Shown: positions 30,028-60,630, counted from the stretch's first letter. The stretch: 64,000 bases of DNA from Gammaproteobacteria bacterium (GCA_029882975.1 JAOUJW010000002.1:124001-188000), one strand, 5' to 3'. A program made the numbers and translations. The notes: generated by a model not told the origin, from the letters alone.

Positions 30028-31102
30028 GGGCTACCTCCAAACAAAGATCTGCAACTTTGACAGTAGCCTGTGGTAAGGCACAAGCCCTGGCGGCTTTAGC
30101 CATGGATGCCAATTTTTGCTTATCGGCAAATTGCATTAACAACTCGTGTAACTTTGTTTGCGTCAGATCCTTTTGTTGCACCATGAGCGCCGCTCCTCGA
30201 TCCACCAGATAATGGGCATTACTGGTTTGATGGTCATCCACGGCAAATGGATACGGTACCAAAACCGACGGCAACCCCGCCAAAGCCAATTCCGCCACCG
30301 TCAGGGCTCCGGCCCTGCATAACACCGCATCTGCCCACGCGTAAGCTTGCGCCATGTCATCAATAAAAGGTTCAACTCGAGCAGTAACATTGTGTTGGGC
30401 GTATGCCTGCCTGGCATCCTCTATCAATTTTTTTCCGGTCTGATGCCAAACTTGAGGACGCTGATCCGGTTTAAATTGGGCCAAGGTTGCAGGAACCACG
30501 TCGTTCAAGGCTTTGGCCCCCAGGCTACCGCCGACAACCAGCAGATGATAATTACCGTGCTGCCCGTCGGCCTCCTTACCCTGAGTTTTTCCAATATCGG
30601 CGCGCACCGGATTGCCGGTGTGTATCGCTTTTCCGCTTGCAAAAGTTCCGGGAAACGCTTCTAAAACCCGTCGCGCAAACGGTACCAGCAATTTGTTGGT
30701 CAAACCTGCCACTGCATTTTGCTCATGAATCACTAAAGGCGTACGGGTACACCAAGCTGCCACACCGCCTGGACCGGTAACGAATCCTCCCATCCCCAAT
30801 ACAGCAACGGGCTTTACCCGGCGCATAACACTGATACCCTGAATCAAAGCCAACAGTAGCTTCACCGGTGCCTGTAGCCACCCTAACAAGCCATTGCCCC
30901 GCAGACCGGAAACGTTAAGGAAAGAAATCTCAATACCTGCTTTAGGCACCACCTCCGCCTCCAAACCTCTGCGCGTACCCAGCCAAGCCACAGCAATTCC
31001 ACGGGAGCGCAACTCATCAGCAACAGCCAGGGCAGGAAACACATGCCCGCCGGTACCGCCAGCCATAAGCAGAATGGTTTGCTTGTGATTCGCCTCTGAC
31101 AC
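30020..31102 (-). CDS. murG: Lipid II synthase glycosyltransferase MurG
   Basis: Transfers GlcNAc to lipid I at the inner face of the membrane, giving lipid II. 360 residues with the G-loop [10 protein letters not shown] near the start, a second G-rich loop V-V-G-G-S-L-G-A, and [10 protein letters not shown] in the donor site. The GTG start at 31102 shares one base with the ftsW stop (TAGTG). Confidence 0.97.
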
Positions 31103-32391
31103 TACCGCCTCCCTCCATTGTGGGCACTTCCGCGCCCGCTGTGGGCACTTCCCCGCCCGCTGTGGGCACTTCTTCGTCCGCTGTGGGCACCTCCACCATT
31201 GCTGCTGCCCGCATATTGGTTGTTTTCTGCCAGTATTCTTAACAAAATGGCGCAGGACATACAGGTCACCACAATACTACTGCCGCCGTAACTCATCAGC
31301 GGTAAGGTAAGACCTTTGGTCGGCAAGAGCCCCATGTTCACACCAATATTAATCAAGGCCTGAAATCCAATCAGCAATCCCAAACCGAAAGCCAAAAATC
31401 CGGCATAGATATTACCCGCAGCAAAAGCCACACGCCCTATGTATAATGCACGAAAACTGATCACGCCAAATAATACGATGACGACCAAACCACCCACCAA
31501 ACCCAACTCTTCGGCCAATACAGCAAATAAAAAGTCCGTATGCGCTTCGGGCAAATAGAATAGCTTTTGAATGCTACCGCCCAAACCCACTCCTAACCAT
31601 TCACCTCTGCCAAAAGCTATTAGCGATTGGGTCAACTGAAACCCGCAGTTAAACGGATCAGCCCATGGATTAAGAAAACAAGTCAACCGTTCCACCCGAT
31701 AAGGCGCCGAATAGGCCACAACGGAAAAAGCGGCTCCTAACATGAGTAACAAAGCAGCGAATTGGCGCAGACGTACACCACCAATAAACATCATCCCCAA
31801 TGCGGTTATGGCAATAACAAATGCCGCCCCAAAATCCGGTTCCAATAACAACAGGATCGCAATAAGAGACAATAACATCATGGGCTTCAAAAACCCCTTC
31901 ACGGATGTACGCACCTCTTCACCACGACGCTCCAGATATCCCGCCAAAAACATCACCACAAACAATTTCATTAATTCCGACGGCTGTAGATTCACCGGCC
32001 CCAGGGAAATCCAACGTGTACTACCATTGATTTCTCGACCCAAGACCAGCACCAGTATTAATAAAACAGAACCCAACATCAGCAAGGCCGGGTTGATTTT
32101 TTCCCATACAGCAATAGGCACATGAAACACCAACCAGGCCAAAATCAAACCTGCACACACATAGGCGCTTTGCCGCCAAAAAAAATAGAACGGTTCACCC
32201 ATTTGCTTTTCCGACAATGATACAGAGGCAGAACCCACCATAACCAAACCCAAAATCAACAACACCAAGGTCGCGCCTGCCAACCAATGATCCACAGACA
32301 AGCGACGCTTTCGCGGCCACTCTCCGCTTAACTTCGGCTCCAGTAACCTGGGCTCTCTCAACCTTGGTTCTTTGAGTTCTGCCACACTCAC
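31102..32391 (-). CDS. ftsW: Peptidoglycan glycosyltransferase FtsW (with repeat tail)
   Basis: A SEDS-family polymerase of septal peptidoglycan, partner of FtsI. 429 residues with about ten membrane spans. The conserved catalytic Asp region and the ending L-P-L-M-S-Y-G-G-S-S-I-V are present. Unusually, the protein ends with about 30 residues rich in Gly, Ser, His and Arg, made of four heptad copies of the type AHSGRGS, encoded by a 21-bp tandem repeat. The normal C-terminus is short and charged. The tail would lie in the cytoplasm. It overlaps murD by 4 bases and murG by 1. Confidence 0.96.
   Translation of the reverse strand: MSVAELKEPRLREPRLLEPKLSGEWPRKRRLSVDHWLAGATLVLLILGLVMVGSASVSLSEKQMGEPFYFFWRQSAYVCAGLILAWLVFHVPIAVWEKINPALLMLGSVLLILVLVLGREINGSTRWISLGPVNLQPSELMKLFVVMFLAGYLERRGEEVRTSVKGFLKPMMLLSLIAILLLLEPDFGAAFVIAITALGMMFIGGVRLRQFAALLLMLGAAFSVVAYSAPYRVERLTCFLNPWADPFNCGFQLTQSLIAFGRGEWLGVGLGGSIQKLFYLPEAHTDFLFAVLAEELGLVGGLVVIVLFGVISFRALYIGRVAFAAGNIYAGFLAFGLGLLIGFQALINIGVNMGLLPTKGLTLPLMSYGGSSIVVTCMSCAILLRILAENNQYAGSSNGGGAHSGRRSAHSGRGSAHSGRGSAHNGGRR
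31115..31200 (-). repeat. 21-bp tandem repeat at the 3' end of ftsW
   Basis: The core TGTGGGCAC (plus-strand reading) recurs at 31119, 31140, 31161 and 31182, exactly 21 bases apart, with substitutions in the remaining positions. It encodes four seven-residue units at the FtsW C-terminus and ends just before the murG start. The unit length keeps the frame, so copy number can vary without breaking the gene. Confidence 0.9.
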
Positions 32392-46126: not shown

Positions 46127-48487
46127 TTACCGTGACCGTATTGACTCGACCATATTCCTTGCGTCCTTCCCGGGGGCATCCAGATACAACGGATGTTTTT
46201 TGGTATTGGTATGGGAATGAAAATACTGATACCGGAATATGGCATCCAGCCCATGGCAATCCGCGCAAACCATTTCTTCTACTGAATGGTTTCTTAGAAA
46301 ACTATCAGAGCTACCCCCTTCCCTCTCTATTCCGGGAGCTGCATTTAACTTTGCCCCACTCCATTGGTGTGGGTCATGACAACTGGGACAACTAATAATA
46401 CCTACGCTGACTTCTTTTCCTGCCTCTGAGAACACCGGTGTAACCGGCATTAGATCCACATCGGCAGACAGAGGTAAGTTTCGCTTGGGTTGATTCCAGG
46501 ATAAGACGTGATCCGGATGTTTACCGTAGTTCACGACCTTATTGCTGATGCGGTTCATGCTCGAATGACAACTTCGGCAAAAAGAAGCTTGAATATTTTT
46601 CGCCTTACCCGGTGACCTACCCCAAATTGCAGTCTTGGACACGGCATTGTGACTGGCATGGCATTGATTGCAGACACCTGCCTTGAGACTTTTTTGTTTG
46701 CTATTGTAATCGAGCCAGCTATCTACCACGCGATAATCGTGTTCGGTATTTATCACTCCGGCTTCGTGTTCATGGCACCCGGTACACAAGGGTGAATCCC
46801 CGGCGGCGGTTACTCGCAAAAAACTGTTACCCGTATGCGCCTTAATAGTCATCGCATCTTTTATTTTCAAGGCTGGATTGGCCGCATCCCACACATGAAC
46901 GTTGTGGCAGGTTGTACAATCAATTTTCCCTCGTCCAGGCTCATCAACTCGCTTCCCGGTCAAGCTAAATAACGGCAATTTCCCCCGCTGCTTTTTTACC
47001 TCAATCAAATTTGGATGGTTGAAGGAGTCAGGAGCAAAATGTTTAGCCGCACCCTTTTCTATATGACAGGCTTCACATTGAGCCTGTATCAAGGACACGG
47101 ATTCTCCCACTGCCCCCAACTGCAACATCTGTGGCGCATCGCCTTTGTGCGCTCGATGGCAGGCGGAACAAACCCCTTGACCTGTTACAGTATGTTTGGG
47201 TAATTTTCCTTTCCTACCTGCGTCATACAAATTCACATTGTGTTTACTGTTTATAACGGCCGCGTTACGTGTATGACAATTTACGCATAGCGTACTGTTC
47301 TTCCCCAATTCCATCCTTAGGAAATTCGATTTACCAACGGATGATGTAGCATGGGGATCATGACAAGTTGAACACTGTACATTGCCACCATTACGAACCG
47401 CTTTTCCTGTGGAATCGAATAGGGGTAATGAAACCAGGTTTGCATCGCCTCCGCCTTTTTTTACCCACTGACCCGCTGTAACGTCAATACCCAAGCTTTC
47501 TACCGGCACATCCACGGGATGAGAAAAATGCCCTAAATCGGTTTTTGAAGCCAAGCCATCTTTGTTATGACACACAACACAGCGCGAACTGGATTCAACT
47601 GCAGCCACTCCGAAGCCGGCTCCTATATTCGCCAGCAGTGGGGTATCAACTGCCCCGTGACTGACGTGACAACTTGCGCAAGGCCCTCTTGCCGCCATTT
47701 CCTTACCCTTAGCGGTTTTCAAAAATGCTTCATTCTTTACCAGATTGTGCTCACCCTTGAGCAGAGCCTTTTTGTCGTCATGGCACACTGTACATAACTC
47801 GGACCTCTGACTGTCTTCCACCAAAAGCTTCTTGCCCTTGGCGTTGTGCGCCCCGTGACATGACTGACAAACCATCTGCCCACCGGTTCCCAATTCCATA
47901 TCCACACCTATCAGCTTCTCAGATAGAGTTTTATTGATACGCTTCAGGGGATGATTAATTTTTGCTGATTTTTTTTCCCGGTGACAATCCATACACATGC
48001 TGGAGTTAATATTCTTATTTCGCATAAAAATAGCCCCTTGGCTATCCCAAGCATCTCCATGCGCGGTATGACAGGTACCGCAATAGAGTTTTCCTTCTTC
48101 ATTCAGTGGGTAAGTATACCCTGCACCAGAGAGACTCCCTTTGACTTTATCCGACGGTTTCACCCCTACCGGGTGATTGTGGGTATCATCTCCAAATTGA
48201 AACCGTGAATCATTAACAAAACCATCATGGCAAGAAAAACACATCCTTTTCGTGCTCACCACTTTTTGCTTGCCGGAATCCGCCATCACATACTCATATA
48301 CCGGCATCAAGGGAGCACCTTGATCAGCCCCAACCATCCAATCAATGTGACAAACTGCACACGCCCCTGACTTTTTAATTCCCGGTAAATCCATTGCAAC
48401 CGCCAACGACGGTATACTAACCACAATTAGCAATACCACCTTTATAAGGTCTATTAAGCATTCTGTACTGACCACAGTTTTCATCAA
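46127..48487 (-). CDS. 18-heme c-type cytochrome
   Basis: 786 residues with a signal peptide (cleavage near A-V-A, about residue 31) and 18 CXXCH heme motifs spread through the chain, the first at C43-H47. Many motifs are followed by D/N-P-H or A-H, giving the repeated H-x-H seen in doubled-CXXCH modules. There is no membrane anchor or lipobox, so it is exported to the periplasm or beyond. The heme number and length suit a long electron wire. It starts with a 4-base overlap with an NHL-repeat gene and is followed directly by sfsA. I do not recognise a named homologue; the count is from the sequence, the location is inferred. Confidence 0.88.
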   Translation of the reverse strand: MMKTVVSTECLIDLIKVVLLIVVSIPSLAVAMDLPGIKKSGACAVCHIDWMVGADQGAPLMPVYEYVMADSGKQKVVSTKRMCFSCHDGFVNDSRFQFGDDTHNHPVGVKPSDKVKGSLSGAGYTYPLNEEGKLYCGTCHTAHGDAWDSQGAIFMRNKNINSSMCMDCHREKKSAKINHPLKRINKTLSEKLIGVDMELGTGGQMVCQSCHGAHNAKGKKLLVEDSQRSELCTVCHDDKKALLKGEHNLVKNEAFLKTAKGKEMAARGPCASCHVSHGAVDTPLLANIGAGFGVAAVESSSRCVVCHNKDGLASKTDLGHFSHPVDVPVESLGIDVTAGQWVKKGGGDANLVSLPLFDSTGKAVRNGGNVQCSTCHDPHATSSVGKSNFLRMELGKNSTLCVNCHTRNAAVINSKHNVNLYDAGRKGKLPKHTVTGQGVCSACHRAHKGDAPQMLQLGAVGESVSLIQAQCEACHIEKGAAKHFAPDSFNHPNLIEVKKQRGKLPLFSLTGKRVDEPGRGKIDCTTCHNVHVWDAANPALKIKDAMTIKAHTGNSFLRVTAAGDSPLCTGCHEHEAGVINTEHDYRVVDSWLDYNSKQKSLKAGVCNQCHASHNAVSKTAIWGRSPGKAKNIQASFCRSCHSSMNRISNKVVNYGKHPDHVLSWNQPKRNLPLSADVDLMPVTPVFSEAGKEVSVGIISCPSCHDPHQWSGAKLNAAPGIEREGGSSDSFLRNHSVEEMVCADCHGLDAIFRYQYFHSHTNTKKHPLYLDAPGKDARNMVESIRSR

Positions 48488-49377
48488 GGTAAACCATATA
48501 CCGATACTTTGTTTGCCAGCACCTCTACCACATACAAATTCTGATTGTGCACTGCAAGCCCGGCAGGAGCTGAAAAACGCAATATTGCACCACTATTACC
48601 CAACACATGATTAAACGATCCTTGGCTATCAAACACTTGAACCACATCCATATAGCTGTCCGAGATATAGATACGGCCCCTGGCGTCCACGGCCACGCCT
48701 TTGGGACGAAATAATTTTCCTTGCACTACTCCCAAGCTACCCACACTTTTCAGGAACTTCCCTCCATTAGTGAAAATCTGCGCTCTTGCATTCAACACAT
48801 CCACAATAATGTTTTTACCCGCTTCCATGCTACTGACAGTTGCCGGGTAGCGAAACTTTCCCTCCCCTTCTCCCTTTCCACCCCAAGATCGCAGCAACTT
48901 TCCTTGAAAAGAATAAACTTGAATTTTTTGACTGTTATTGCAACTCACCAGGATGCCCTTACCACTATCCACCAATGCCACATCAATGGGCCTGTCTGGT
49001 TTACCATCAACCATGATGGGAATGTTTTTCTTAAAATCTCCGTGTATTCCCATAATTTTTACGGCATGATTGCCCGTGTCCGCCACAATAAGATCACCTT
49101 TGCTCAAGGCCACACCTACCGGATAGTTAAACAGATCCTTCTTGCCAATTGCGTACAAGTAGGTACCGCGCTTATCAAACATTAATATGCGATGCTTGTT
49201 ACCATCGGCTACCGCGATATAGTTATCATTGACCGCCACATCGGTAGGAAGACTCATGGAATCGCCAGGCTTTCCCACGATATCAAATAGATGTTTTGCA
49301 TCGGCTAGCGCATAGTCGTCCGCAGCATAAACCAGCGGTAACACTGCCCACAAAACCACTACAATGAACACCCTCAC
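48484..49377 (-). CDS. Secreted NHL-repeat beta-propeller protein
   Basis: 297 residues with a cleavable signal (V-L-P-L-V-Y-A, about residue 18) and about six NHL repeats forming a beta-propeller, for example V-D-A-R-G-R-I-Y-I-S-D-S and V-F-D-S-Q-G-S-F. No heme motif and no lipobox, so a soluble periplasmic or exported protein. NHL proteins near multiheme cytochromes are seen in metal-reducing bacteria, with unknown role; scaffolding of the cytochromes is a guess. It overlaps the genes on both sides by 4 bases. Confidence 0.85.
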   Translation of the reverse strand: MRVFIVVVLWAVLPLVYAADDYALADAKHLFDIVGKPGDSMSLPTDVAVNDNYIAVADGNKHRILMFDKRGTYLYAIGKKDLFNYPVGVALSKGDLIVADTGNHAVKIMGIHGDFKKNIPIMVDGKPDRPIDVALVDSGKGILVSCNNSQKIQVYSFQGKLLRSWGGKGEGEGKFRYPATVSSMEAGKNIIVDVLNARAQIFTNGGKFLKSVGSLGVVQGKLFRPKGVAVDARGRIYISDSYMDVVQVFDSQGSFNHVLGNSGAILRFSAPAGLAVHNQNLYVVEVLANKVSVYGLP

Positions 49378-50261
49378 GGATTTTTACTCCGCTTACGCTC
49401 ATCTTTTCTGATAAACAAATCCGGAAAATGAAATTTATTATATTCACTAACCAGGGCAGCAATGGCAATATCCATCAACCTCTTGGAGTCTTGCGCGGAA
49501 TAACCCAATCGAGCGTAGGAAATAGCGGACTTCTTCTTTGAATGACAATCATCGCACTTAAACGGCTTCCTGGTCAGCCCTCTGTGCATGTGAGATAGTT
49601 GCGCCCTGAGTTCAACATCTCCCATTTCCTGGTAACTGTTCAAAAGCTTTTTCGCTTCTTCGATTTTAGAGTCATCGATAATAGACCCCCGATCTTGCTT
49701 GCGCTTTAACCACGGTATAATTTTTACACTTTGCAAGCGCCCCATTCCATTGTCGAACTCTATCTTGGGTTTTGACAAATCCAGTTTCACCGGTCTAATA
49801 GTCGCCTCCCGGGAGTACACGTCCATCCAACCGTGTTCCACATCCTCCGGTTTAAACTGGTTTATAAAATGACAAGTTTCACAGGCCACAAAGTAGCTGT
49901 GCATATTTCTAAAAGCCCTGACTTCCTCCCCTTTTTTGTGCGCCATATTTGTGTGGCAATAATCGCATCCATTCAATGCAGCCCCCTTCAACATACCGCC
50001 TACATGATGAAAATGCCCCGTTTCATAGTGCTCCTTAATCGAAATATCCCCCAAATGATATTCCTTCGTCGGCTCTGTGCTCAATCTACCTCGGAGCTTT
50101 TTCAACAACGCCATTTCCGACGGCACCCCTTTGAGCACTTCGGCAGTATTTGTTTGCTTTACTTCAAAGTCCCAATAAATCAAAGAATAGAACAATTGGC
50201 CGGCCCAGAACACAAGGCACAGCAACAACAGCACGTAAAACTTATAAGCCAGCTTTTTCAC
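49374..50261 (-). CDS. Membrane-anchored triheme cytochrome c
   Basis: 295 residues. One N-terminal membrane helix (about 8-28) without an obvious cleavage site is followed by a periplasmic domain with three CXXCH motifs: C99-H103, C127-H131 and C236-H240. It contains several additional His residues (G-H-F-H-H-V-G) that could serve as distal ligands. It lies 19 bases after the cytochrome b gene in the operon, so it probably takes electrons from that quinone-reactive subunit. I do not recognise a named family. Confidence 0.85.
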   Translation of the reverse strand: MKKLAYKFYVLLLLCLVFWAGQLFYSLIYWDFEVKQTNTAEVLKGVPSEMALLKKLRGRLSTEPTKEYHLGDISIKEHYETGHFHHVGGMLKGAALNGCDYCHTNMAHKKGEEVRAFRNMHSYFVACETCHFINQFKPEDVEHGWMDVYSREATIRPVKLDLSKPKIEFDNGMGRLQSVKIIPWLKRKQDRGSIIDDSKIEEAKKLLNSYQEMGDVELRAQLSHMHRGLTRKPFKCDDCHSKKKSAISYARLGYSAQDSKRLMDIAIAALVSEYNKFHFPDLFIRKDERKRSKNP

Positions 50262-50280
50262 ACCAGGATCCTTACACTAC

Positions 50281-51072
50281 TTAATGATGAGGCTTAATCT
50301 CATTTTCCAACCCCACAGACTTCATGAGCTGTACGTAGCGATCATAGTGCTCATGTATCATTTGTTTCTCGGACAGGTACCCGGAAAAAAAACCGGTGGG
50401 GTAAGGCAGCTTCTCCGGACAATAGTATTCGTGATACCAGTGAATAAACAACAAAAACAAAACCGCCATTAGTGCCTCGTAAGAGTGAAATATGTAAGCC
50501 ACATTCAACACTATCCCCGGCAGCAACAAACTCACTTCGTCCCGCCACCATAAAGCCAACCCTGCCAAACCAATGACCGTTATTCCCCAGTACTGTGCGT
50601 AGTATTCAAATTTTTCTTTCCACATTATGCGATCATACTTTGCCGGCTTTCTGGACAAATAAGTTATATATTTAAAGTGATCCAAAATATCCTTAAAATC
50701 TTTCTTGTTCATAATCATTGCTTGAGACAGAAATGCCGATAACACATTTTTTCCGCTGATGCTGTTGTACATTGCCAATCGACACAAGTGATGGCGGTAA
50801 AACAAGTTTAGCCAGTACAACGTGTGATATATAAAAACAGACAACAATACCACACCCGCAGCTCGATGAATGTTGGGAGCAATATCCGGCCCTCCAAAAA
50901 GAATGTATAAGGGCTTGGCCCAGGCCTGATCAGCATAGCGAAGGGGCAGGCCGGTCATAGCCAAAACCACAACCGAACTCAATTGAATGATGGATTGGAC
51001 TCTTTGTGTCGTAGTATATTTTTGAAAATACAACACCCTATTTATTCGCATTACGCTTGGTCGCCGATACAT
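50281..51072 (-). CDS. Integral membrane b-type cytochrome
   Basis: 263 residues with about four membrane spans. Candidate heme b ligands are H69, H83, H196, H211 and H214, placed in or at the ends of spans, as in cytochrome b561/formate dehydrogenase gamma-like proteins. It would exchange electrons between quinol and the periplasmic cytochromes. ATG 51072 is chosen because an AGGAGGG lies 3-9 bases upstream; this makes a genuine 35-base overlap with the preceding octaheme gene. The family assignment is by general pattern and is not secure at subfamily level. Confidence 0.8.
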   Translation of the reverse strand: MYRRPSVMRINRVLYFQKYTTTQRVQSIIQLSSVVVLAMTGLPLRYADQAWAKPLYILFGGPDIAPNIHRAAGVVLLSVFIYHTLYWLNLFYRHHLCRLAMYNSISGKNVLSAFLSQAMIMNKKDFKDILDHFKYITYLSRKPAKYDRIMWKEKFEYYAQYWGITVIGLAGLALWWRDEVSLLLPGIVLNVAYIFHSYEALMAVLFLLFIHWYHEYYCPEKLPYPTGFFSGYLSEKQMIHEHYDRYVQLMKSVGLENEIKPHH

Positions 51073-52156
51073 ACACCCTCCTTATTGCGTCATTTACCAT
51101 CTCGATAACCGAATCAGGCAATTGGTACAGGGGAAACAGCCGCCTGAAAAGCTCTAACGCCACAACAATGAGAAATCCGTACAGCACCACTGTCATGACT
51201 ATTCTGAAAAATATCAACAATATAAACTGCAATGGATATTTGTCCGCCTCATACGTCACGTGGGTTTTAAATCCCGCCAAACGTACCGACGCTTTCTCGT
51301 GGCAACCTGCCTGCTTACAGGTGTCACCAACTCGTGCGGGATGAGTTGAAGATTCCTGGTCTTTTTGCGACTTAACCAAGTGACCATTAGCACCGCTGAC
51401 CACATGGCAACCAATGCAATCGGGAGTTTTCTCCGACCCCAATCGCAGCATTTTGTAATGAAATGTTTCCTTAAACGAAGCAACCACATTATCCAACTTA
51501 TGGCGTTCCATTATCCCTACGTCGGAATGACACTGGGAACACATGTCAATCCTACCCATCGGCCCGGTTTGGCGCTGCATTCTTGATGCAACATGGCGAA
51601 AATATTTTTCTACAAACTCTATTTTCTCATGACAATTTTTGCACCGTGATAAACTTTTTTCTGCAAAGGCTTCGGGATCCTTAGTCACACCCAGCAATGA
51701 GCGATACAGTGGCTGCTCATGACACTGGCGACATCCGGGATAATCCTCTTTATACTTTTTTTCTTTACCGGTTTCATCCACACTGGAATGCGCACTGGCG
51801 CGCAAGAGTTTTTGTACTCCCTTGTGAGAAAACCGCCGCTTTGCCGCCGGTTCTTCAATATGGCACTCCACAGTGCAATCCACTTGTTTTACATCCTTAT
51901 GTGGAACTTCATCTATGCCTTCATGACAATCAGTACACTCCACGCTTGCGTGGGGACTGCGACTAATTAAGTCTTCATTAATGTAATAAACATGAATACT
52001 GCCATTTTTTTCTACTGCGCTTAGACCAAAGTATTTGTGACACAGCATACAATTAAGATCTTCGGCCACCACGACATCGGCAAAAAAAGCACAGATCAAG
52101 ACCAAACCGCCAAGCGGAATGCAGCAGAGCCTCGTTATAGTGTCTTTAATATTCAT
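51038..52156 (-). CDS. Membrane-anchored octaheme cytochrome c with two unusual heme motifs
   Basis: 372 residues. Signal sequence at the N-terminus (about 12-31), eight heme motifs, and one C-terminal membrane helix (about 309-336) with a short cytoplasmic tail. Six motifs are CXXCH (first cysteines at 36, 74, 142, 172, 206 and 247). One is CX3CH (C94-H99) and one CX4CH (C280-H286). The unusual motifs sit in regular positions relative to neighbours, so heme attachment is likely. The C-terminal anchor, rather than the N-terminal one of NapC/NrfH, is notable. It lies directly before the cytochrome b gene and may form a complex with it. No homologue is recognised. Confidence 0.85.
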   Translation of the reverse strand: MNIKDTITRLCCIPLGGLVLICAFFADVVVAEDLNCMLCHKYFGLSAVEKNGSIHVYYINEDLISRSPHASVECTDCHEGIDEVPHKDVKQVDCTVECHIEEPAAKRRFSHKGVQKLLRASAHSSVDETGKEKKYKEDYPGCRQCHEQPLYRSLLGVTKDPEAFAEKSLSRCKNCHEKIEFVEKYFRHVASRMQRQTGPMGRIDMCSQCHSDVGIMERHKLDNVVASFKETFHYKMLRLGSEKTPDCIGCHVVSGANGHLVKSQKDQESSTHPARVGDTCKQAGCHEKASVRLAGFKTHVTYEADKYPLQFILLIFFRIVMTVVLYGFLIVVALELFRRLFPLYQLPDSVIEMVNDAIRRVYVSATKRNANK

Positions 52157-53129
52157 GACAAAAATTACAGGTTTTCTTCATCCGTAACCGATGTTTTATA
52201 TCTGCACCCGTATCGGCTGCCTTGTAGGCAACAACGCCTTTTTCGTGAGGATTGTGACAAGTAGCGCAATGCATTTTGCCGGTTCCCGGCGTTACCGGAA
52301 ACTCCACATCGATTGTTGTGCGCATTTGGTCCATAAACCTGCGGGTCTCCGCCTTGGGCACTACCAGATGGTCCGCCTCCTTCTTTTTGGTTATACCCGT
52401 TTCACCTCCCGGATGAGGTTTGTAGGGATGGCAATTCACACACAATTGGGACAAATCTCTTTTGGCCGCCAATTTCACATCAGCAAACTTAGTCTCCGGC
52501 GTTAAGTTTTCTACATCGAGGTGGCAAGACTTACAACTGGCTTTAATGATTTTTCCGTTGCTGATTTGTTTGTGCGGGTTAAAACGTTGAAACATACTGC
52601 TTTCGTGACAAAAAAAGCATTGTTCGACACGGCTATTGTAAGGACCACCCCGGAGAAACAGAGGATTGGACATTCGTACCGTAGAACCTCTGTTCAGACA
52701 TTGAAGCTTCAAATCATGACAAGAAAGGCAGTTCATCAATCGACTGGCCCTCCCGCCTAAGGAAGCCAGTGACTGACGAAACCCCGATGGTATATTGTTC
52801 CACATATTGTCATTCAGGCTTACGCCCGTGGGGTGCATAAATATTTCTTTAGAAAATTCATTGTGGCAATAGCCACACATGATTTCGATGTTCGTGGTTC
52901 GCAGGTTGGTTCGCCCCATCTGCCCTCCTGCCTCATGGCACGACAAACACATATCTTGCTTCCAATGGGGATTGGGCACATCCACCGCATACAGTTTGCC
53001 TTGTTTTAACAGAGGCCTTATTAACGCTGGATTAGTTACAATTTCATTGCGTAAGTCTGCCGCATTCACCGCCGACACCAAAATCGACATCACAGAAATC
53101 AAAATCCAATATTTGCTATTGACTGTCAT
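52146..53129 (-). CDS. Periplasmic octaheme cytochrome c
   Basis: 327 residues with a cleavable signal (V-N-A/A-D, about residue 23) and eight CXXCH motifs, ending with C-N-F-C-H-E-Y at the very C-terminus. There is no anchor, so the protein is soluble in the periplasm. The heme count recalls the eight-heme periplasmic member (OmaB-type) of Geobacter porin-cytochrome conduits; sequence homology is not claimed. It overlaps the next gene by 11 bases and follows the 12-heme gene by 6. Confidence 0.86.
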   Translation of the reverse strand: MTVNSKYWILISVMSILVSAVNAADLRNEIVTNPALIRPLLKQGKLYAVDVPNPHWKQDMCLSCHEAGGQMGRTNLRTTNIEIMCGYCHNEFSKEIFMHPTGVSLNDNMWNNIPSGFRQSLASLGGRASRLMNCLSCHDLKLQCLNRGSTVRMSNPLFLRGGPYNSRVEQCFFCHESSMFQRFNPHKQISNGKIIKASCKSCHLDVENLTPETKFADVKLAAKRDLSQLCVNCHPYKPHPGGETGITKKKEADHLVVPKAETRRFMDQMRTTIDVEFPVTPGTGKMHCATCHNPHEKGVVAYKAADTGADIKHRLRMKKTCNFCHEY

Positions 53130-53135
53130 AGTGAT

Positions 53136-54812
53136 TCAATAGATCTCCGGCGGGTGATCCGTTCCATGACAAACCAGCTGACAGCTACCACTAAAAACCC
53201 CGGTGGAGGTAAAGTTAATCACACCACCGCTGGGCGACACTACATTAGTGTCAAAGTTAATCAAAGCTATACTTCCCACCCCGCCCGCCGCCGCGCTGAC
53301 GCCGTGAGCATCATGGCACACGCTGCACGGTGCATTTTCACCCACAATGTGCATTTGATGCTCCGGAAAACTGGTATTACCCAAAATGGCAGTCCGGTCG
53401 TGACACTTGTAACACAAGGCATAGGCAGCAGCGCTTTCGGCAGCATTACCAGTCGCGGTATACTGTAGTTTCAGGATGGGGGAATACACCGAGCCGTGGG
53501 GCGCGTTTGTTAAACCGGAATCACTACCATGACAGTCTATACAAGTGATGGTGCTGTTTACTGTGAGCGGCGGAATTAAACTGGGAACATTAAGATTTTT
53601 CCCGGTTCCGGCGACGGGATGATAGGTACTGTTAGTGGTGTCAAACAGACTTTTAATGTTGTTTTGCGGGAATTGTCGTACGGTACGCGGTGCCGGGAGG
53701 TTGGGACTGTCGCCATGGCAACGAAAACACAATTGATAAACATTAGTGATGGGACTGACCACTGTGTTTTGAAACGTGACTCCACTCAAACCTGCCACGC
53801 CTACTGTGACTCCGGAAGCATGAGGATTGTGGCAATCCACACACTCCACATGCCTACCCCCCGTAATCACCACCGGCTCATTGGGATCATGCACGCCGTT
53901 GCTGGACATCACCGGATGGACTGAGAGTTTGGAGAAGTCTGTCAGAACATCCGGGGACACGGAACCGTTATGACAAATAGTACAAGCGTCTTCTTCATTG
54001 CTATAGGTCAGCAATCTTTGCGAGTGCAGGGCAGAGTGAGTGTCATGGCAATTTCTACAGCCGTTATCCGCCACAGTCGTAAACGTACTGTTTGGCCACG
54101 GATTCACCCCTACGCCATTCCATCCCGCCGTTGAATTGCGATGGGGCGACAAATTCCAATCCGGCTTTTTATGGCAGGTTTCACACAGCATGGAACCTCG
54201 ATCATCCATTACCAGAAATTTCCCAAACGTATTGTCATGAGGATTATGGCAGGAAGTACATTGCAACATGCCCGCCGCATCCAGCTTCACAGGACCGGTC
54301 AACGTCGCCGGATCCACCAACTCATTGCGTAAAGATGACACAGAAGAACTGTACAAAAACGAGACCGGATGATCGTCAGACAAATCGGTTCCTAACAAGC
54401 CTCCGGTTACCGGCATCACAGTCGTACCCCCTGCCATTTGGATATTACCGGACGTGGTACTGCCTAACGCAACCGTTCCATCGTGACAACTCAGACACAA
54501 AAGACTGGCCCCGGTGGGCTGTCCGGGGTTACTGACAATGGTGCTGCTGCTGTAAGGAGTATAAATCGCACCGGAACTGGCTCTATTCCACAAGGGGGCA
54601 ATAGGTGAAGCATGGTGTGCCGTGTGGCAAAACACGCATATTCTGTCTTCGCTGGCCGCTTTCAGAGTTCCAGGCCCGGAAATAGACAAGTTGTGCTTGG
54701 TATTGGCAACACCCGCTTGAACCTCAATCCCACTACAAATCAGTAAGACGAATACAATTACCTTTGAGTATTGCCCCAAACCTCCACTCCGCTTACTCTG
54801 GACTGACATCAT
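53136..54812 (-). CDS. 12-heme c-type cytochrome
   Basis: 558 residues with a signal peptide (cleavage near V-Q-A/G-V, residue 33). Eleven CXXCH motifs start at C59, C106, C185, C210, C252, C277, C324, C362, C424, C467 and C496, and a twelfth is CX3CH (C544-H549). Long Gly/Ser/Thr-rich stretches separate the hemes, as in outer-surface cytochromes. The first 215 residues match the whole tetraheme protein encoded at 59265-59927 (same order of C-H-T-x-H, L-W-N, L-C-L-S-C-H-D-G-T-V, L-S-D-D-H-P). No lipobox is present, so surface attachment would need another partner. It overlaps the NHL lipoprotein gene by 4 bases. Confidence 0.87.
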   Translation of the reverse strand: MMSVQSKRSGGLGQYSKVIVFVLLICSGIEVQAGVANTKHNLSISGPGTLKAASEDRICVFCHTAHHASPIAPLWNRASSGAIYTPYSSSTIVSNPGQPTGASLLCLSCHDGTVALGSTTSGNIQMAGGTTVMPVTGGLLGTDLSDDHPVSFLYSSSVSSLRNELVDPATLTGPVKLDAAGMLQCTSCHNPHDNTFGKFLVMDDRGSMLCETCHKKPDWNLSPHRNSTAGWNGVGVNPWPNSTFTTVADNGCRNCHDTHSALHSQRLLTYSNEEDACTICHNGSVSPDVLTDFSKLSVHPVMSSNGVHDPNEPVVITGGRHVECVDCHNPHASGVTVGVAGLSGVTFQNTVVSPITNVYQLCFRCHGDSPNLPAPRTVRQFPQNNIKSLFDTTNSTYHPVAGTGKNLNVPSLIPPLTVNSTITCIDCHGSDSGLTNAPHGSVYSPILKLQYTATGNAAESAAAYALCYKCHDRTAILGNTSFPEHQMHIVGENAPCSVCHDAHGVSAAAGGVGSIALINFDTNVVSPSGGVINFTSTGVFSGSCQLVCHGTDHPPEIY

Positions 54813-55837
54813 GACTCACCACCAACATAACGAAAAACCTGCACACGCTTGTTATAGGAGTCTGCTATGTAAATTGCATTACTTATGGTGTCTATGAAGA
54901 TCCCCGTCGGCAACCAAAACTCACCAAAATCCGAACCTTGAGTGCCAAAATTGAGTAAAAACCGCCCCCCCGCATCAAACACCTGAACCACATGGAACAA
55001 CGAGTCAACGACATAAATATGCCCCAGGCGATCCACCGCTATGCCCTTTGGACGTGCCTGATAACCAGTGGCATTGCCTGCTTGACCGAATTTGTACTTA
55101 AACTCCCCGTTACTGGAAAATACTTGCACTCTAAAATTAAGGGAATCGCTGACATAAAGATTTTCCTGCTGATCCAACCATAAATAAGTAGGAAAATTAA
55201 ATTGGCCATCGGCGTCTCCTCGCCGCCCCAAGACGCGCATCAGTTTGCCTGATTCATCATAAACTTTTATGTGATGCTCAGCGGTATCAGACACAAACAA
55301 AACTTTAGTCCTCCGGTTGTACGCCAAACCGGTGGCTTGTTTGGGTTTCTCACTCAATGGGTACAGACGTGCAACCTGCGACTTTTCGGAAAAGTGGAGT
55401 ACGCCTAATGTAGGGTCTGACACATAGATACGATCATCTCCCAACGCTAAAGCCACCGGACTGGGGAGTGCTTGATCATTTTCCATGCGAACCACCTCAT
55501 GACCGGCACCCGCTTCATCAAAATGATGAACCCCACCCACGCCCGGATCCGCCACATACACCGACTGCCCTGTCACCAGCACATCCATGGGCTTCACTAC
55601 AGTTAAGGTAGACTCACCAAACAACAAACCTTTTACGCGTTCCAACAGGGAACGTGTAATACCCAAGTCCTCTTTGCGGTGTATGTACCCGCGATAAACG
55701 ATACGCGCCGGGGAAGGCGATTCAGGCCATACCAGGTTCACGGTTCCAAAGTTGGTAGCACCACCGGCACTGGCACAGGACACCAGAATGGATACTAAAC
55801 TAACTACGCCAGTTACTCGAAGTGCTATGATCGCCAT
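54809..55837 (-). CDS. NHL-repeat beta-propeller lipoprotein
   Basis: 342 residues. A lipoprotein signal ends at C21 (I-L-V-S-C). About six NHL repeats follow, such as R-P-K-G-I-A-V-D-R-L-G-H-I-Y-V-V-D-S. I start at ATG 55837 because it lies one base after the beta-barrel stop and has a GAAGG upstream; the longer frame from 55894 would run inside the barrel gene. It is expected to be anchored at the outer membrane, probably next to the barrel encoded directly upstream. Role unknown. Confidence 0.85.
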   Translation of the reverse strand: MAIIALRVTGVVSLVSILVSCASAGGATNFGTVNLVWPESPSPARIVYRGYIHRKEDLGITRSLLERVKGLLFGESTLTVVKPMDVLVTGQSVYVADPGVGGVHHFDEAGAGHEVVRMENDQALPSPVALALGDDRIYVSDPTLGVLHFSEKSQVARLYPLSEKPKQATGLAYNRRTKVLFVSDTAEHHIKVYDESGKLMRVLGRRGDADGQFNFPTYLWLDQQENLYVSDSLNFRVQVFSSNGEFKYKFGQAGNATGYQARPKGIAVDRLGHIYVVDSLFHVVQVFDAGGRFLLNFGTQGSDFGEFWLPTGIFIDTISNAIYIADSYNKRVQVFRYVGGES

Positions 55838-55838
55838 G

Positions 55839-57950
55839 TTAAAACCTTCTTTCCAGTGTAGCCCGCAACAAATTTCTATCCTTTTGCACATCACCGAGAG
55901 CGTTAACCTGGGCCTCGCTACTGCGACGGCCGTTTAAGGAGAAATAAAGACTGCGGAAACGCCACTGCCATTTCACAACAAAATCTGACAAATCTCTGGG
56001 AAACTCACCTCCGTTGTCCGTTTCGCGCACGTAGGACAAGTAAATACTCGACTGTAGGAAAGCTCGGGTGTTTACGGCAAAGTTTTGACGAACCAAATTG
56101 ACATCCGCTCCGGCGGTGTCGTAGTCTACTTTGACAAAGTTATGGGAATAGCGGAAAAAAGTTGTGTCATAAAGCTTATACTGCGCGAACCCTCCCCAAG
56201 CGACACGCTCATGGGGTGCTATACCTTTTCTTTGCAAATCAAACCGGAAGTCACCACCAACCCCAAATTCATTGGATACGGGATAATTGATATTAAACCC
56301 CAGGTTCCTGAGATCGGAAGATCGAATATCGATACCTGGCGTTCCCTCGGTGACATCCACTCGGGTCGCCGACAAACCGGCATACACACTTAACCAGTTT
56401 TGCCAGTCCATACTGGCCTGGATTTGTTGATCCATACTGCTATGGGAAAAAGTCCCACCGGTTTTGTAGGCGTAGTCTACAAGCACGTTTTCCCCATCAG
56501 CAATATTCCCACCCACAATGCGAACCAGGTAGGTTTCGTTGCCTCGCCGTATAGTGGAAAAGTCACTACCCAGGATATATTCTGCCGTACGAGTGATGTT
56601 CCACACATGTACGGTATTCGCATCCACGTTGATGCGGGACAGTCGGGACTCATTTGCGCCCACCAAAGTGTGCTGTTCATTTTGTACGGGAATCAATTGA
56701 CTGGATCCTTGCGCAGCCCGCTCCTCTACCTGATAGCCCCAGGAAGCTTTGAATATAGCCACTCCGTCGTGTTTGGATTTTTTCTTACGATTATTTTGCT
56801 TTTCGTTTATGCCGGGAACAGTATTGGAAAGGCCTAATTTTCTACTAGTATGAGAAGAAGCGGTAATTCCGTAAGAATCCATGGTGTGGCCGCTGGTAAA
56901 GTTGTCATAGATTTGAAATTCTGCTGACTTTCCGCCGTCGTTCTCATCAACTTGTTTATATCCGACACGGAAATTCTTATTATCCGTATCCGTAGATCCT
57001 TGGCTGCTTTTGAACAAATCCAATTGATAGAACATTCGTGCCACGTCGGATTTCGCCCAATGTAACACCGGTGAAAAATGAAACTGCTTTAGCGTTACAT
57101 CAGATATTCCACGTTTATACCGACGTCCCATATAGTTAAACATGTTTTTCAGAGAATACTCCCCTTTCGCCCCATACGTAGAGTACTCATCATAGCTGAT
57201 TGTTTGTGCGTCAATAGCGGTTCCAACAATGGTGTTGGCACCGGGGGCCACGCTGCCGCTATGAGAATTTTGCTGACTCAATTGTACAAACACCTGCCTG
57301 CTTCCATTACGCTTGTTGGTTTGATATACACGTAAGTTCATATTGCTGATATCATCATCCACCAACAATCGTTGTCCTGAAGCTTTTGAAGTTAAATTGT
57401 AGGCTTCAAAGTTAACGAATAACGGATACTTCCATTCTTTCACAACCGCATTAACACCAAATTTGGTATTTCTTTGCAAAAAGTGTTCGTCCACGCCAGA
57501 TACAATCAGAGGATTGCGGCGCTCGAAGAAAACAGAAAAGGGGTAGGGTTTTTTCTCAAGAAAATGAAATCGGGTTGTTAGATTGTACGTTAACTCATCA
57601 ACATCTTGACCGGAAGACTGCGAATCCAAACTACTAACATACGATGAGCCTTGTTTATTGGTAATGAATACCGGCCCACCACTAACATCCAATTTGAGAA
57701 AGTTTGGATGATAGACGTAAGCCTTCGCATCCACTTCTATTTCGATTTCTCGAATATCACTACTCAAATTTCGTTTGGAATTGGCGTCGGAGTAATGCTG
57801 TTCGTCGCTAAAATCGCGCACAGCCACAACTCCAGCCAGGTCGGTAAGCTGGAATTGCCTAATATCCTCCGCCGAGGTGACTGTCGGAATTGTACTTACC
57901 CCCACCATCACATACCTCAACCACTTAACGCTTGCGCGTAAATACTGCAT
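55839..57950 (-). CDS. Outer-membrane beta-barrel protein of the cytochrome cluster
   Basis: 703 residues. Signal peptide with cleavage near T-S-A/E-D (about residue 26), no heme motif, alternating polar and hydrophobic strands throughout with aromatic girdle residues, and a C-terminal Phe (L-E-R-R-F), the outer-membrane insertion signal. Size suits a barrel of 20 or more strands, as in the MtrB or OmbB porins that sheath cytochromes. No N-terminal CXXC pair of MtrB is evident. The gene is followed after one base by an NHL lipoprotein gene and then by 12- and 8-heme genes. The barrel call is sound by pattern; the conduit role is inference. Confidence 0.8.
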   Translation of the reverse strand: MQYLRASVKWLRYVMVGVSTIPTVTSAEDIRQFQLTDLAGVVAVRDFSDEQHYSDANSKRNLSSDIREIEIEVDAKAYVYHPNFLKLDVSGGPVFITNKQGSSYVSSLDSQSSGQDVDELTYNLTTRFHFLEKKPYPFSVFFERRNPLIVSGVDEHFLQRNTKFGVNAVVKEWKYPLFVNFEAYNLTSKASGQRLLVDDDISNMNLRVYQTNKRNGSRQVFVQLSQQNSHSGSVAPGANTIVGTAIDAQTISYDEYSTYGAKGEYSLKNMFNYMGRRYKRGISDVTLKQFHFSPVLHWAKSDVARMFYQLDLFKSSQGSTDTDNKNFRVGYKQVDENDGGKSAEFQIYDNFTSGHTMDSYGITASSHTSRKLGLSNTVPGINEKQNNRKKKSKHDGVAIFKASWGYQVEERAAQGSSQLIPVQNEQHTLVGANESRLSRINVDANTVHVWNITRTAEYILGSDFSTIRRGNETYLVRIVGGNIADGENVLVDYAYKTGGTFSHSSMDQQIQASMDWQNWLSVYAGLSATRVDVTEGTPGIDIRSSDLRNLGFNINYPVSNEFGVGGDFRFDLQRKGIAPHERVAWGGFAQYKLYDTTFFRYSHNFVKVDYDTAGADVNLVRQNFAVNTRAFLQSSIYLSYVRETDNGGEFPRDLSDFVVKWQWRFRSLYFSLNGRRSSEAQVNALGDVQKDRNLLRATLERRF

Positions 57951-58088
57951 TTTTTTCTCTTTATTTATAATCGATACAACTTTTGGAAAGGTGGATAAAC
58001 CCCCTTTGCCTACGCCCTAAATCATTCCTTTAACCGATACCTCCATCATCTTTTAACACGACCCCTAGCGGTAAGATTCCCGCCATCC

Positions 58089-59177
58089 TCACAAATTACG
58101 ACGGTATTCTCCAAAACCATATACTGTGATTTTATTCGGACCATATTGGCTCGTTACAAAAACCAAATACTGTAACCGAAAGTTTGGATCTGCATATTGT
58201 TCAAAGGACTGGACACCATCATAGGAAATACTAATATCCGCCGGTAAATTTATATTGTCGAGTTCATTTCCAGGCTTTCCGAAGAACATGAGCAATTGAC
58301 CGTGACGATCGAACAATTGTATATTTTCAAAAGCAGAATCTATGGCGTATATCAGGCCTTCGTGGTCCACCGCAATTCCTTTTGGCCTGGCGAATTGACC
58401 TAAACCGTTACCGGCCTGACCATAGGAACGAACAAAGCGTCCATCCAGGGTAAACTCCTGTAAACGATAGTTCCCTGTATCGCTAACCAAAATGTTATTG
58501 TTGGGCATCAATGCCATATTGGTCGGAAAAAACAATTCACCGGCACCGGAGCCCCGCGCACCAATGGTTCTGCGCGTTACCCCGCTGTTAAGATCCAATA
58601 CATGGACGATGTGGTGCTCCAAATCAGAGATGTATATTTCTCCATCGACCACCAGGGCATCACTGGGTTTAAACTGCTCCAATTTTCCATAGGCTTGCAA
58701 AAACTCGTCTTGTTGATCGAAAACCATCACTTGACCGCGTCCCGTATCGGATATATAGCGCCTACCCTCACGATCCACGGTTACGTTAATAGGCTTTTGC
58801 ATCCGTCCCGGTCCCATACCCCTTACGGTTTTCAAAACCTTATCATTGGCATCCAAAATCATATACCCCGGCCCCCGGGTATCCACGACAATAACTTGAT
58901 TGGAAAAGTATGCAACGCCATAAGGCTTAGTGAGGCGGCTTTCGACACCGTCCTCTTTACCTAGGACAAAGTCGCTAAAAGCATTCTTGGTTTTCCCTTG
59001 AACCAGGGCGGCATTAATAGTTGTGAGTAACTGTATGCGAGGCTCGTTAGGCAAAGGCGGATAGAAAACAGTTTTGACGCCGCGCTGCCCCGTTTCCGAG
59101 ATTACGCTACAGCCAGACAACACTAAAAAACAAGCAAAGACGTAAACCGTCAGTGCACTTTTTTTAATCCCAAACAT
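58089..59177 (-). CDS. NHL-repeat beta-propeller lipoprotein
   Basis: 362 residues. A lipoprotein signal ends near C23 (V-L-S-G-C). About six NHL repeats follow, including R-P-K-G-I-A-V-D-H-E-G-L-I-Y-A-I-D-S, which matches the repeat at the same place in the other two NHL proteins of the cluster. ATG 59177 is chosen over TTG 59192 because a G-rich ribosome binding site precedes it. It lies 138 bases ahead of the beta-barrel gene and 87 bases after the tetraheme gene. Confidence 0.84.
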   Translation of the reverse strand: MFGIKKSALTVYVFACFLVLSGCSVISETGQRGVKTVFYPPLPNEPRIQLLTTINAALVQGKTKNAFSDFVLGKEDGVESRLTKPYGVAYFSNQVIVVDTRGPGYMILDANDKVLKTVRGMGPGRMQKPINVTVDREGRRYISDTGRGQVMVFDQQDEFLQAYGKLEQFKPSDALVVDGEIYISDLEHHIVHVLDLNSGVTRRTIGARGSGAGELFFPTNMALMPNNNILVSDTGNYRLQEFTLDGRFVRSYGQAGNGLGQFARPKGIAVDHEGLIYAIDSAFENIQLFDRHGQLLMFFGKPGNELDNINLPADISISYDGVQSFEQYADPNFRLQYLVFVTSQYGPNKITVYGFGEYRRNL

Positions 59178-59264
59178 TGACCACACCCCCAACTAATACA
59201 GCTTTACCGCTATTGTTTTTGACACCTTATAAACAACAGTTATTTTCCTATTCTCGGTTTCATT

Positions 59265-59927
59265 TTATTTATCATGACAACTCAGACACAGCTGGCTGCC
59301 CTTTGTAGAAATTCTCAGCAAAGGGTCTCCCGCAGTGAAATTGTTGTGGACGTCGTGACAGCTGGTGCACTGTACTGTACCGTCCACCAACATCAATTGT
59401 TCAATGGTACCGGTTTTTGTTTTAGAACCGGCAACACCTACCGTAACGGTTGTGGTCGTCGGATCATGCAAGGAACCATCAGCCAAGGCTAACGCCGAGT
59501 CAAAGCGAATGGAAATAGGATGATCGTCTGAGAGATTTCCGCCAACTCCAACCACTTTTGTTCCACTCATGAAGGTGGCTCCAGAAGCACCGCCAAAACT
59601 GTCCACACCGACAGTTCCGTCATGGCAAGACAAACACAGCCGGGATATTCCACCGGGTTGCCCAGTGCTGATAGCATCAAGCGCCGGACTGCTATACATA
59701 GTAAAACTGGTGCTTGTCACAGAGTGGTTCCACAACTGCGCCACTTGAGTAGAATCACCACTATGTGGGGTGTGGCAAGCGACGCATATTTCTCCCCCAC
59801 TCCATCCGGAAGTGGTGAAGTCGTGGGCAGACCCAGCGACGCGGCCTGCATGCACTGGCGTTGCATAGTTGAGTATACTTATCAGCACAATAAGGCCGGC
59901 ACTGATATCTGATCTGTTTCTTTTCAT
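59265..59927 (-). CDS. Tetraheme c-type cytochrome
   Basis: 220 residues with a signal peptide (cleavage near V-H-A/G-R, residue 27) and four CXXCH motifs: C-V-A-C-H (C48-H52), C-L-S-C-H, C-T-S-C-H and a final C-L-S-C-H two residues from the end. It is a shortened paralogue of the first third of the 12-heme protein. A good ribosome binding site (GGAGG) stands 5 bases before the ATG. It is the first gene of the cytochrome cluster; the 700-base region upstream must hold the main promoter. Confidence 0.88.
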   Translation of the reverse strand: MKRNRSDISAGLIVLISILNYATPVHAGRVAGSAHDFTTSGWSGGEICVACHTPHSGDSTQVAQLWNHSVTSTSFTMYSSPALDAISTGQPGGISRLCLSCHDGTVGVDSFGGASGATFMSGTKVVGVGGNLSDDHPISIRFDSALALADGSLHDPTTTTVTVGVAGSKTKTGTIEQLMLVDGTVQCTSCHDVHNNFTAGDPLLRISTKGSQLCLSCHDK

Positions 59928-60630
59928 TTAAACCTCCAAACCCGGACCACAGCTACAACCGCGACACACTTCAAACACACGAGTTCCGGCATGTACTCAG
60001 AAGATAGGTATATACATTGAGGCCAATTAGCCGCTGCAGGCTCTTTGCCCGCTGAAGGCTCTTTGCCCGCTGAAGGCTCTTTGCCCGCTGAAGGCTCTGG
60101 TTGTAAGCGGTAAGGAATCGAGTCAGAACAGACCGACAGGAATACGTCAGAATTTTTGCTACACCCACATCTACAGCCATACTAGCCCCCTAGTGTTTGC
60201 ACGGTACCAAATGCAAAACCGTTACCGCGCTTAGAAATTATTTTGTCAGAAACTCCAGGAGTGTTTCGCAACCAGCAAACCCCTGCGCAGTCCCTACTTA
60301 TGGATCAACCTTGTTAGGATTAATTTTTTTATTCTTATTCCGAGGCTGGCTTGAGTATAATCGAAACTGATTTGGAATACATACAACGACATACGTAGAT
60401 CGATTTGCTTCAGTAGGAAAAAATGCATGTAAAAACAAGGCGATTAACGATCGCTTAAGGAACTTTACCTAACGCACTTACATAACATTCAGATTAATCC
60501 TACAGTTCTATGTAGAGACAACTCTAAGTAGCATAGGTGAGTCGACATCAAATAAAAAAGGAAATAGTCTGCACAACTCAGCAAACTGCTAATATAGCTA
60601 TTAAGAGACCAGAAAGAAAACAGCAATAAA
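59928..60630. other. Gene-poor region upstream of the cytochrome cluster
   Basis: About 700 bases between tldE and the tetraheme gene, both on the minus strand. It must hold the cytochrome promoter, but I find no convincing -35/-10 or sigma-54 site. It contains an 18-bp tandem repeat (separate entry), a short palindrome ACTAG-CCCC-CTAGT at 60181-60194 and an inverted repeat TTTGCA/TGCAAA at 60196-60217. A 69-codon frame at 59971-60180 is just the repeat read through and I do not call it a gene. Confidence 0.5.
60033..60098. repeat. 18-bp tandem repeat
   Basis: Three full copies and one partial copy of an 18-base unit (GCTGAAGGCTCTTTGCCC type) run head to tail from 60033. The first copy has C instead of A at its fifth position; the others are identical. 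There is no spacer between units, so it is not a CRISPR array. The near identity suggests recent slippage. Confidence 0.9.

Follow-up and report, generated by a model that had tools for sequence, protein, structure and literature searches.

Our analyses support the view that an eleven-gene operon in a gammaproteobacterial genome builds an envelope-spanning conduit linking the quinone pool with an extracellular OmcE-type filament, in which one of its products, the dodecaheme cytochrome c2, would form the base of the filament at an outer-membrane barrel; we give this reading a probability of about 0.6. The operon lies at positions 46127-59927 of a 64,000-nucleotide stretch from Gammaproteobacteria bacterium (GCA_029882975.1, JAOUJW010000002.1:124001-188000), the whole of which is referred to below as the window, and its genes are named in transcription order c1, NHL1, barrel, NHL2, c2, c3, c4, b, c5, NHL3 and c6 (Table 1). 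Numbers such as L041 or L166 label the genomic loci compared in the analysis.

A 2025 review (PMC12307469) treats the anchoring of cytochrome nanowires and their supply with electrons as an open question. A protein that combines the nanowire fold with additional hemes, and whose gene neighbours that of a conserved barrel in many phyla, constitutes a concrete and testable candidate for such an anchor. More tentatively, and at somewhat less than even odds, c2 may serve as the long-sought base of OmcE-type nanowires, an OmcE subunit fused to an eight-heme barrel cytochrome, so that a single conserved protein would join filament and outer-membrane conduit in many bacterial phyla, combined with an exchangeable inner-membrane module that would set the quinone or the potential.

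An OmcE homologue and a dodecaheme OmcE fusion

Homology to OmcE of Geobacter sulfurreducens (PDB 7TFS; phmmer E 4.8e-24) extends along the entire tetraheme cytochrome c1, which also matches PDB 9yuq_N over its full length (phmmer E 7e-17), from a 16-chain entry named simply as a putative multiheme cytochrome. All four CxxCH hemes of c1, and four distal histidines, stand at the OmcE positions, and the four heme and four distal histidines of OmcE are conserved in 53-56 of the 56 members of the c1 family. In OmcE, a histidine from one subunit coordinates a heme in the adjoining subunit (PMC9473688). The homology and the retention of all eight heme-ligand histidines argue for a conduit ending in a filament, and we propose c1 as the nanowire subunit.

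The same fold recurs in c2, where an OmcE unit precedes a further eight conserved hemes, as indicated by the match of the c2 profile to OmcE (E 3e-40), by the fold of the N-terminal domain, and by conservation of all 12 heme sites across 72 sequences. In its predicted structure (pLDDT 85.6), for which 7TFS was the sole significant Foldseek match, residues 39-215 superpose on 7TFS with Z 12.7 and rmsd 2.7. This OmcE domain, recognised by both profile and fold, is a further argument for this reading, with c2 as the point at which a filament would begin. Glycine-rich C-terminal tails were observed on the c2 relatives at L041:6150-7859 and L044:14569-16302; the c2 of the window has no such tail.

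An outer-membrane barrel flanked by beta-propellers

The AF2 model of the barrel (pLDDT 90.9, pTM 0.81) has approximately 28-30 predicted strands, counted manually from its DSSP string, and a conserved insert near residues 430-480. Neither Pfam nor NCBIfam models match the window barrel, no Pfam family is common to more than one of 71 family members, and PF11854 (MtrB_PioB) matches neither the window barrel nor any of the 71. Lacking a Pfam entry, barrels of this family would be missed by searches with MtrB, OmbB or PCC3 models in Bacteroidota, Verrucomicrobiota, Nitrospirota and others. Its top structural match is MtrB of the Mtr complex (6r2q_B; Z 17.6, TM 0.41-0.44). At the level of sequence profiles (hhalign) it is unrelated to the MtrB of the host genome (5%) and to the open reading frame (ORF) of the host's PCC3 locus (0.6%), and reaches a probability of 96% (E 1.9e-9) with UetC-type barrels, to which it is distantly related; UetC is itself a proposed conduit barrel. 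The large size of the barrel, its structural proximity to MtrB and its distant homology to UetC add to the case for a conduit. The first-pass annotation had named a barrel unrelated to cytochrome-threaded porins as one point on which its proposal might fall, and this is half resolved: no sequence relation to MtrB exists, but MtrB comes first among the fold matches and there is distant kinship with UetC.

The three NHL proteins reported in that annotation were confirmed by PF01436, with E values of 3e-15 to 4e-26. NHL1 probably sits in the outer membrane, and a lipobox-like start was found in 33 of 60 of its homologues. NHL2 probably starts at ATG 55837 (MAIIALRV...), further in than the called start at 55894.

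Distribution and conserved gene order

Relatives of the operon were sought in two sets: 369 genomes of the class, searched with cytochrome b, and named genomes, searched with a c2 alignment after a scan with cytochrome b alone had returned nothing there. Relatives of c2 are encoded at no fewer than 548 loci, and co-occurrence was counted over the best 80 of these, which belong to Gamma- and Betaproteobacteria, Nitrospinota, Nitrospirota, Bacteroidota, Ignavibacteria, Verrucomicrobia, KSB1, Calditrichota, Sumerlaeota, Planctomycetes, Gemmatimonadota and Acidobacteria, with one Desulfobacula. Among these 80 loci, NHL2 accompanies c2 in 72, NHL1 in 57 and c1 in 51, and an iterative profile search placed the barrel in 62 (73 barrels in all; several contigs are short). 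Adjacent same-strand pairs included NHL2-c2 (77, NHL2 directly upstream), barrel-NHL2 (41) and c1-NHL1 (40). Across many phyla, NHL2 is the near-constant upstream neighbour of c2 and the barrel is usually encoded close by, an association that favours a joint role for c2 and barrel in a conduit serving a filament. Within the class, 14 of the 369 genomes have the barrel; a search with the single barrel sequence gave no match in other genomes of the host's order, and the barrel of one relative, picked up with a profile, is of another variant. Aromatoleum tolulyticum, a cultivated carrier, has the core genes only (L061). In most non-proteobacterial loci (L054-L131), NHL1 and the barrel are separated by a cytochrome with five to nine hemes; the window does not have this protein, which is possibly a periplasmic partner of the barrel in those loci.

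These counts also bear on an ordinary porin-cytochrome conduit in which c1 would be a monomeric terminal cytochrome, with no filament. An OmcE-like sequence is no proof of polymerisation, and c1 was not seen near c2 in 29 of the 80 loci, several of which end at a contig edge; yet each of the four distal histidines that c1 has in common with OmcE is present in 53 or more of the 56 family members, whichever one bridges the OmcE subunits being among them. We consider a monomeric c1 distinctly unlikely.

The comparison of synteny and profiles across gammaproteobacterial genomes, suggested with the first description of the locus, recovered the exact eleven-gene order in two other gammaproteobacterial loci, L166 and L075, in addition to the relatives in many phyla. 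A third locus, L163, has ten of the eleven genes in the same order, c1 not being seen. Such recurrence of the whole set is a further argument that the genes act together from quinone pool to filament. At L041 and L044, homologues of the set are rearranged and accompanied by two copies of the c4-b-c5 triplet; the L044 stretch ends inside NHL1, and its c1 was seen on the overlapping L105.

The inner-membrane triplet and the periplasmic cytochromes

Assignment of the b protein follows weak matches to PF01292 (E 2e-4) and TIGR01583 (E 1.2e-8), and its two histidine pairs are conserved; it probably starts at 51051 (MRINRVLYF...), further in than the start of the ORF. In the tree of this protein, the window copy groups with those of L040-L044 in a class I clade (support 97/97), whereas the copies at the window's position in L166, L163 and L075 form a class II clade (100/99); likewise, c4 of the window is 43-46% identical to class I and 28-30% to class II. 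By the tree and these identities, the triplet of the window is of class I, whereas the one at this place in its syntenic relatives is of class II, so that by sequence the inner-membrane triplet is swapped for a paralogue, which suggests that such conduits are modular. The window sequence sits on a long branch, which leaves its precise position within class I uncertain. No other match to the window's cytochrome b was found in the host genome. At the Desulfobacula locus, the same triplet, with a class-I-like b, directly follows c2. The class I clade is separate from nine-heme fusions of the CbcL layout but nearer to them, with weak support, than class II is; this proximity, together with the membrane anchors of c4 and c5, speaks for entry of the quinone pool into the proposed path.

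That the triplet instead serves a periplasmic reductase or oxidase, the barrel genes being a separate unit adjacent by accident, is highly improbable. Related b-type proteins do match the gamma subunit of formate dehydrogenase, and the triplet is found elsewhere as a mobile cassette; however, no catalytic subunit is encoded in the locus, and the same order, with a class I or class II triplet, occurs in several lineages, including Desulfobacula and Sumerlaeota.

Heme sites are invariant in all homologues considered of c3 (eight sites, 7 homologues), c4 (all eight motifs, 12 homologues) and c5 (11 homologues). The repeats of c6 did not appear in a BLAST self-comparison but were revealed by segment alignment, with z scores of 5-12 over CxxCH-keeping shuffles in five of six pairs. 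Relatives of c6 in L163 and L166 have 23-24 hemes versus 18 in the window, which suggests that the length of this wire varies through added repeats. Profile searches of the PDB gave no match for cytochrome b and c4, and weak matches, mostly around the heme motifs, for c5, c3 and c6.

Comparison with known systems

Every layer expected of an EET operon by the first-pass annotation is present: a cytochrome b, anchored cytochromes, periplasmic multihemes, a large barrel and lipoproteins. Its exclusion of Mtr, Mto and Pio also held, given the lack of an MtrB_PioB barrel and of an MtrA/DmsE decaheme in the window (best TIGR03508 score 62.7, cut-off 192). Its description of a candidate new pathway, and the implied lack of closer relatives, were not supported: c1 is an OmcE homologue, the core is related to Uet of Tenderiales, and the operon is better described as a variant of the OmcE/Uet type, which hundreds of genomes from many phyla contain. 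Membership tests rejected the identity of the whole locus with Mtr/Mto, PCC3 or Uet.

OmcE is known as a filament alone, whereas here the operon adds a barrel, propellers, a quinone module and a 12-heme OmcE fusion. The Uet complex, uetABCDEFGHIJ, is described from Ca. Tenderia and Gallionella in PMC10734462 and PMC12575090, and Uet genes were assigned here where their order and content fit the published description. The shared core is homologous but distant, with counterparts in the window of the OmcE-like tetraheme cytochrome (UetA), the barrel (UetC), the NHL proteins (UetH/I) and the 11-12-heme cytochrome (UetJ); c2 is 28% identical to the copy assigned as UetJ, and has 558 amino acids and 12 hemes compared with about 890 amino acids and 11 hemes in the Uet counterpart. 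Among the eleven genes of the window there is no peptidyl-prolyl isomerase (PPIase; UetB), no triheme UetD/E/G, no UetF and no tetratricopeptide-repeat gene, while c3, c4-b-c5, NHL3 and c6 are additional with respect to Uet.

Other resemblances are partial. The quinone-linked inner-membrane cytochromes CbcBA and CbcL of Geobacter similarly pair a b-type cytochrome with a multiheme c-type partner, but CbcL is a single nine-heme fusion as opposed to three separate proteins. In PCC3 (PMC5566968), too, one cluster encodes a porin, multiheme cytochromes and a b protein of the inner membrane, but its barrel differs from that of the window, as does its signature of a protein with five transmembrane segments, two WX3HX13H motifs and SGXXG: the b protein of the window has HX13H/HX14H and no WX3H. 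MtrCAB and MtoAB have a barrel of similar size and fold class, and the OmbB, Ext and Oet conduits of Geobacter resemble the 8- and 12-heme proteins of the window in heme numbers.

The kinship with Uet bears on the main rival explanation, in which the barrel, NHL proteins and c2 chiefly export and assemble the c1 filament, c1 passing through the barrel and electrons arriving otherwise. In Geobacter, eight genes in a block downstream of the OmcS-like GSU2501 have been connected with the maturation and secretion of OmcS (PMC12977616); c1 carries no lipobox, just a Sec signal, and therefore needs an exit route; and Uet, the nearest relative of the locus, includes a PPIase. However, all 12 heme sites of c2 persist across 72 sequences, beyond the need of an assembly factor; neither a PPIase nor a chaperone is encoded in the window locus; and the operon carries its own quinone-linked module. 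We therefore regard a chiefly exporting role as unlikely, though it is the alternative to be taken most seriously.

Proposed electron path

In the conduit-to-filament reading, electrons would pass, in either direction, between the quinone pool and the di-heme cytochrome b with its anchored partners c4 and c5, then between these and the periplasmic c3 and the tetraheme-repeat wire c6, for which NHL3 may act as a scaffold. From c3 and c6 the path would continue to c2. The eight-heme part of this protein would be seated within or beneath the barrel, and its N-terminal OmcE domain would act as the first subunit of a c1 polymer outside the cell. NHL1 and NHL2, as putative outer-membrane lipoproteins, might hold barrel and cytochromes together or help their assembly.

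Several points weigh against this path. TonB-dependent receptors score Z 16.x on the barrel, against 17.6 for MtrB, so that these fold matches indicate a large barrel, not kinship, and are by themselves no proof of threading. The model of c2 was built without hemes and without the barrel, and homology to OmcE need not mean polymerisation.

Other conduits and metabolism in the host genome

The window operon is a fourth system beside the Uet, PCC3 and MtrAB loci of its host. L199 (G000:C3:200000-219999) has a complete operon of the UetABCDEFGHIJ type, with its genes ordered as published and followed by UetJ/lactonase-propeller pairs. The PCC3-type locus L047 (G000:C1:40000-55000) encodes 21- and 24-heme cytochromes, a 722-amino-acid ORF and an inner-membrane protein with the full published PCC3 signature, two WX3HX13H and SGXXG. 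L049 (G000:C3:68000-82000) encodes an MtrA-MtrB pair (TIGR03508 293 bits, TIGR03509 367 bits) and a diheme protein. The host also has two RuBisCO genes and DsrAB, the latter probably of the reverse type, and is therefore probably a sulfur-oxidising autotroph; with these genes, the operon may serve either electron uptake or the dumping of sulfur electrons outside.

Elsewhere in the host genome, L200 has a second UetJ/lactonase-propeller pair with genes resembling those of cytochrome c maturation, and L048 (G000:C43:15000-34000) encodes, near a histidine kinase, two adjacent cytochromes of 873-875 amino acids with 30 or 31 heme motifs each.

Locus layout and minor features

The ORF check bore out eleven genes, all on the minus strand, inside 46127-59927. 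The 53 heme motifs first counted are exact when two CxxxCH and one CxxxxCH are included with 50 CxxCH, distributed from c1 to c6 in gene order as 4, 0, 0, 0, 11, 8, 6, 0, 3, 0 and 18; one CxxxCH belongs to c2, and one CxxxCH and the CxxxxCH to c4. In six frames the 64-kb window has 57 CxxCH, 50 of them inside the eleven genes, so that their density in the operon is not due to chance. Junctions range from short overlaps to gaps of at most 138 bp; the genes do share a strand, and about half of the junctions overlap, so that "mostly overlapping", as first described, was slightly generous.

Table 1. Genes of the operon and its leader, with positions in the window.
Feature	Position	Strand	Description
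c1	59265..59927	minus	tetraheme OmcE-family cytochrome; 4 CxxCH; Sec signal peptide; no lipobox
NHL1	58089..59192	minus	beta-propeller lipoprotein; lipobox LSGC; PF01436/PF17170
barrel	55839..57950	minus	outer-membrane beta-barrel; C-terminal Phe; family without Pfam model
NHL2	54809..55837	minus	beta-propeller lipoprotein; lipobox LVSC; PF01436 E 1e-19
c2	53136..54812	minus	dodecaheme cytochrome; N-terminal OmcE domain and 8 hemes; 11 CxxCH, 1 CxxxCH
c3	52146..53129	minus	octaheme periplasmic cytochrome; 8 CxxCH; Sec signal
c4	51038..52156	minus	octaheme cytochrome; C-terminal membrane anchor, transmembrane 314-332
cytochrome b	50281..51051	minus	HX13H and HX14H pairs; window ORF extends to 51072
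c5	49374..50261	minus	triheme cytochrome; 3 CxxCH; N-terminal membrane anchor, transmembrane 10-28
NHL3	48484..49377	minus	secreted periplasmic beta-propeller; no lipobox; PF01436 E 4e-26
c6	46127..48487	minus	18-heme periplasmic cytochrome; 18 CxxCH; tetraheme repeats of ~166 amino acids
leader	59928..60630	minus	~700 bp; 18-bp tandem repeat; strong GGAGGT ribosome site before c1

No Rfam element was found in the locus, promoter scans gave matches not above chance, and base composition showed no sign of foreign origin. The 18-bp repeat of the leader (3.8 copies, 60031-60098; minus-strand unit TCAGCGGGCAAAGAGCCT) may represent either regulator sites or a piece of a 69-amino-acid ORF at 59971-60180. 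A 21-bp tandem repeat (3.6 copies, window positions 31119-31194) lies inside the ORF 31102-32391 of a cell-division cluster.

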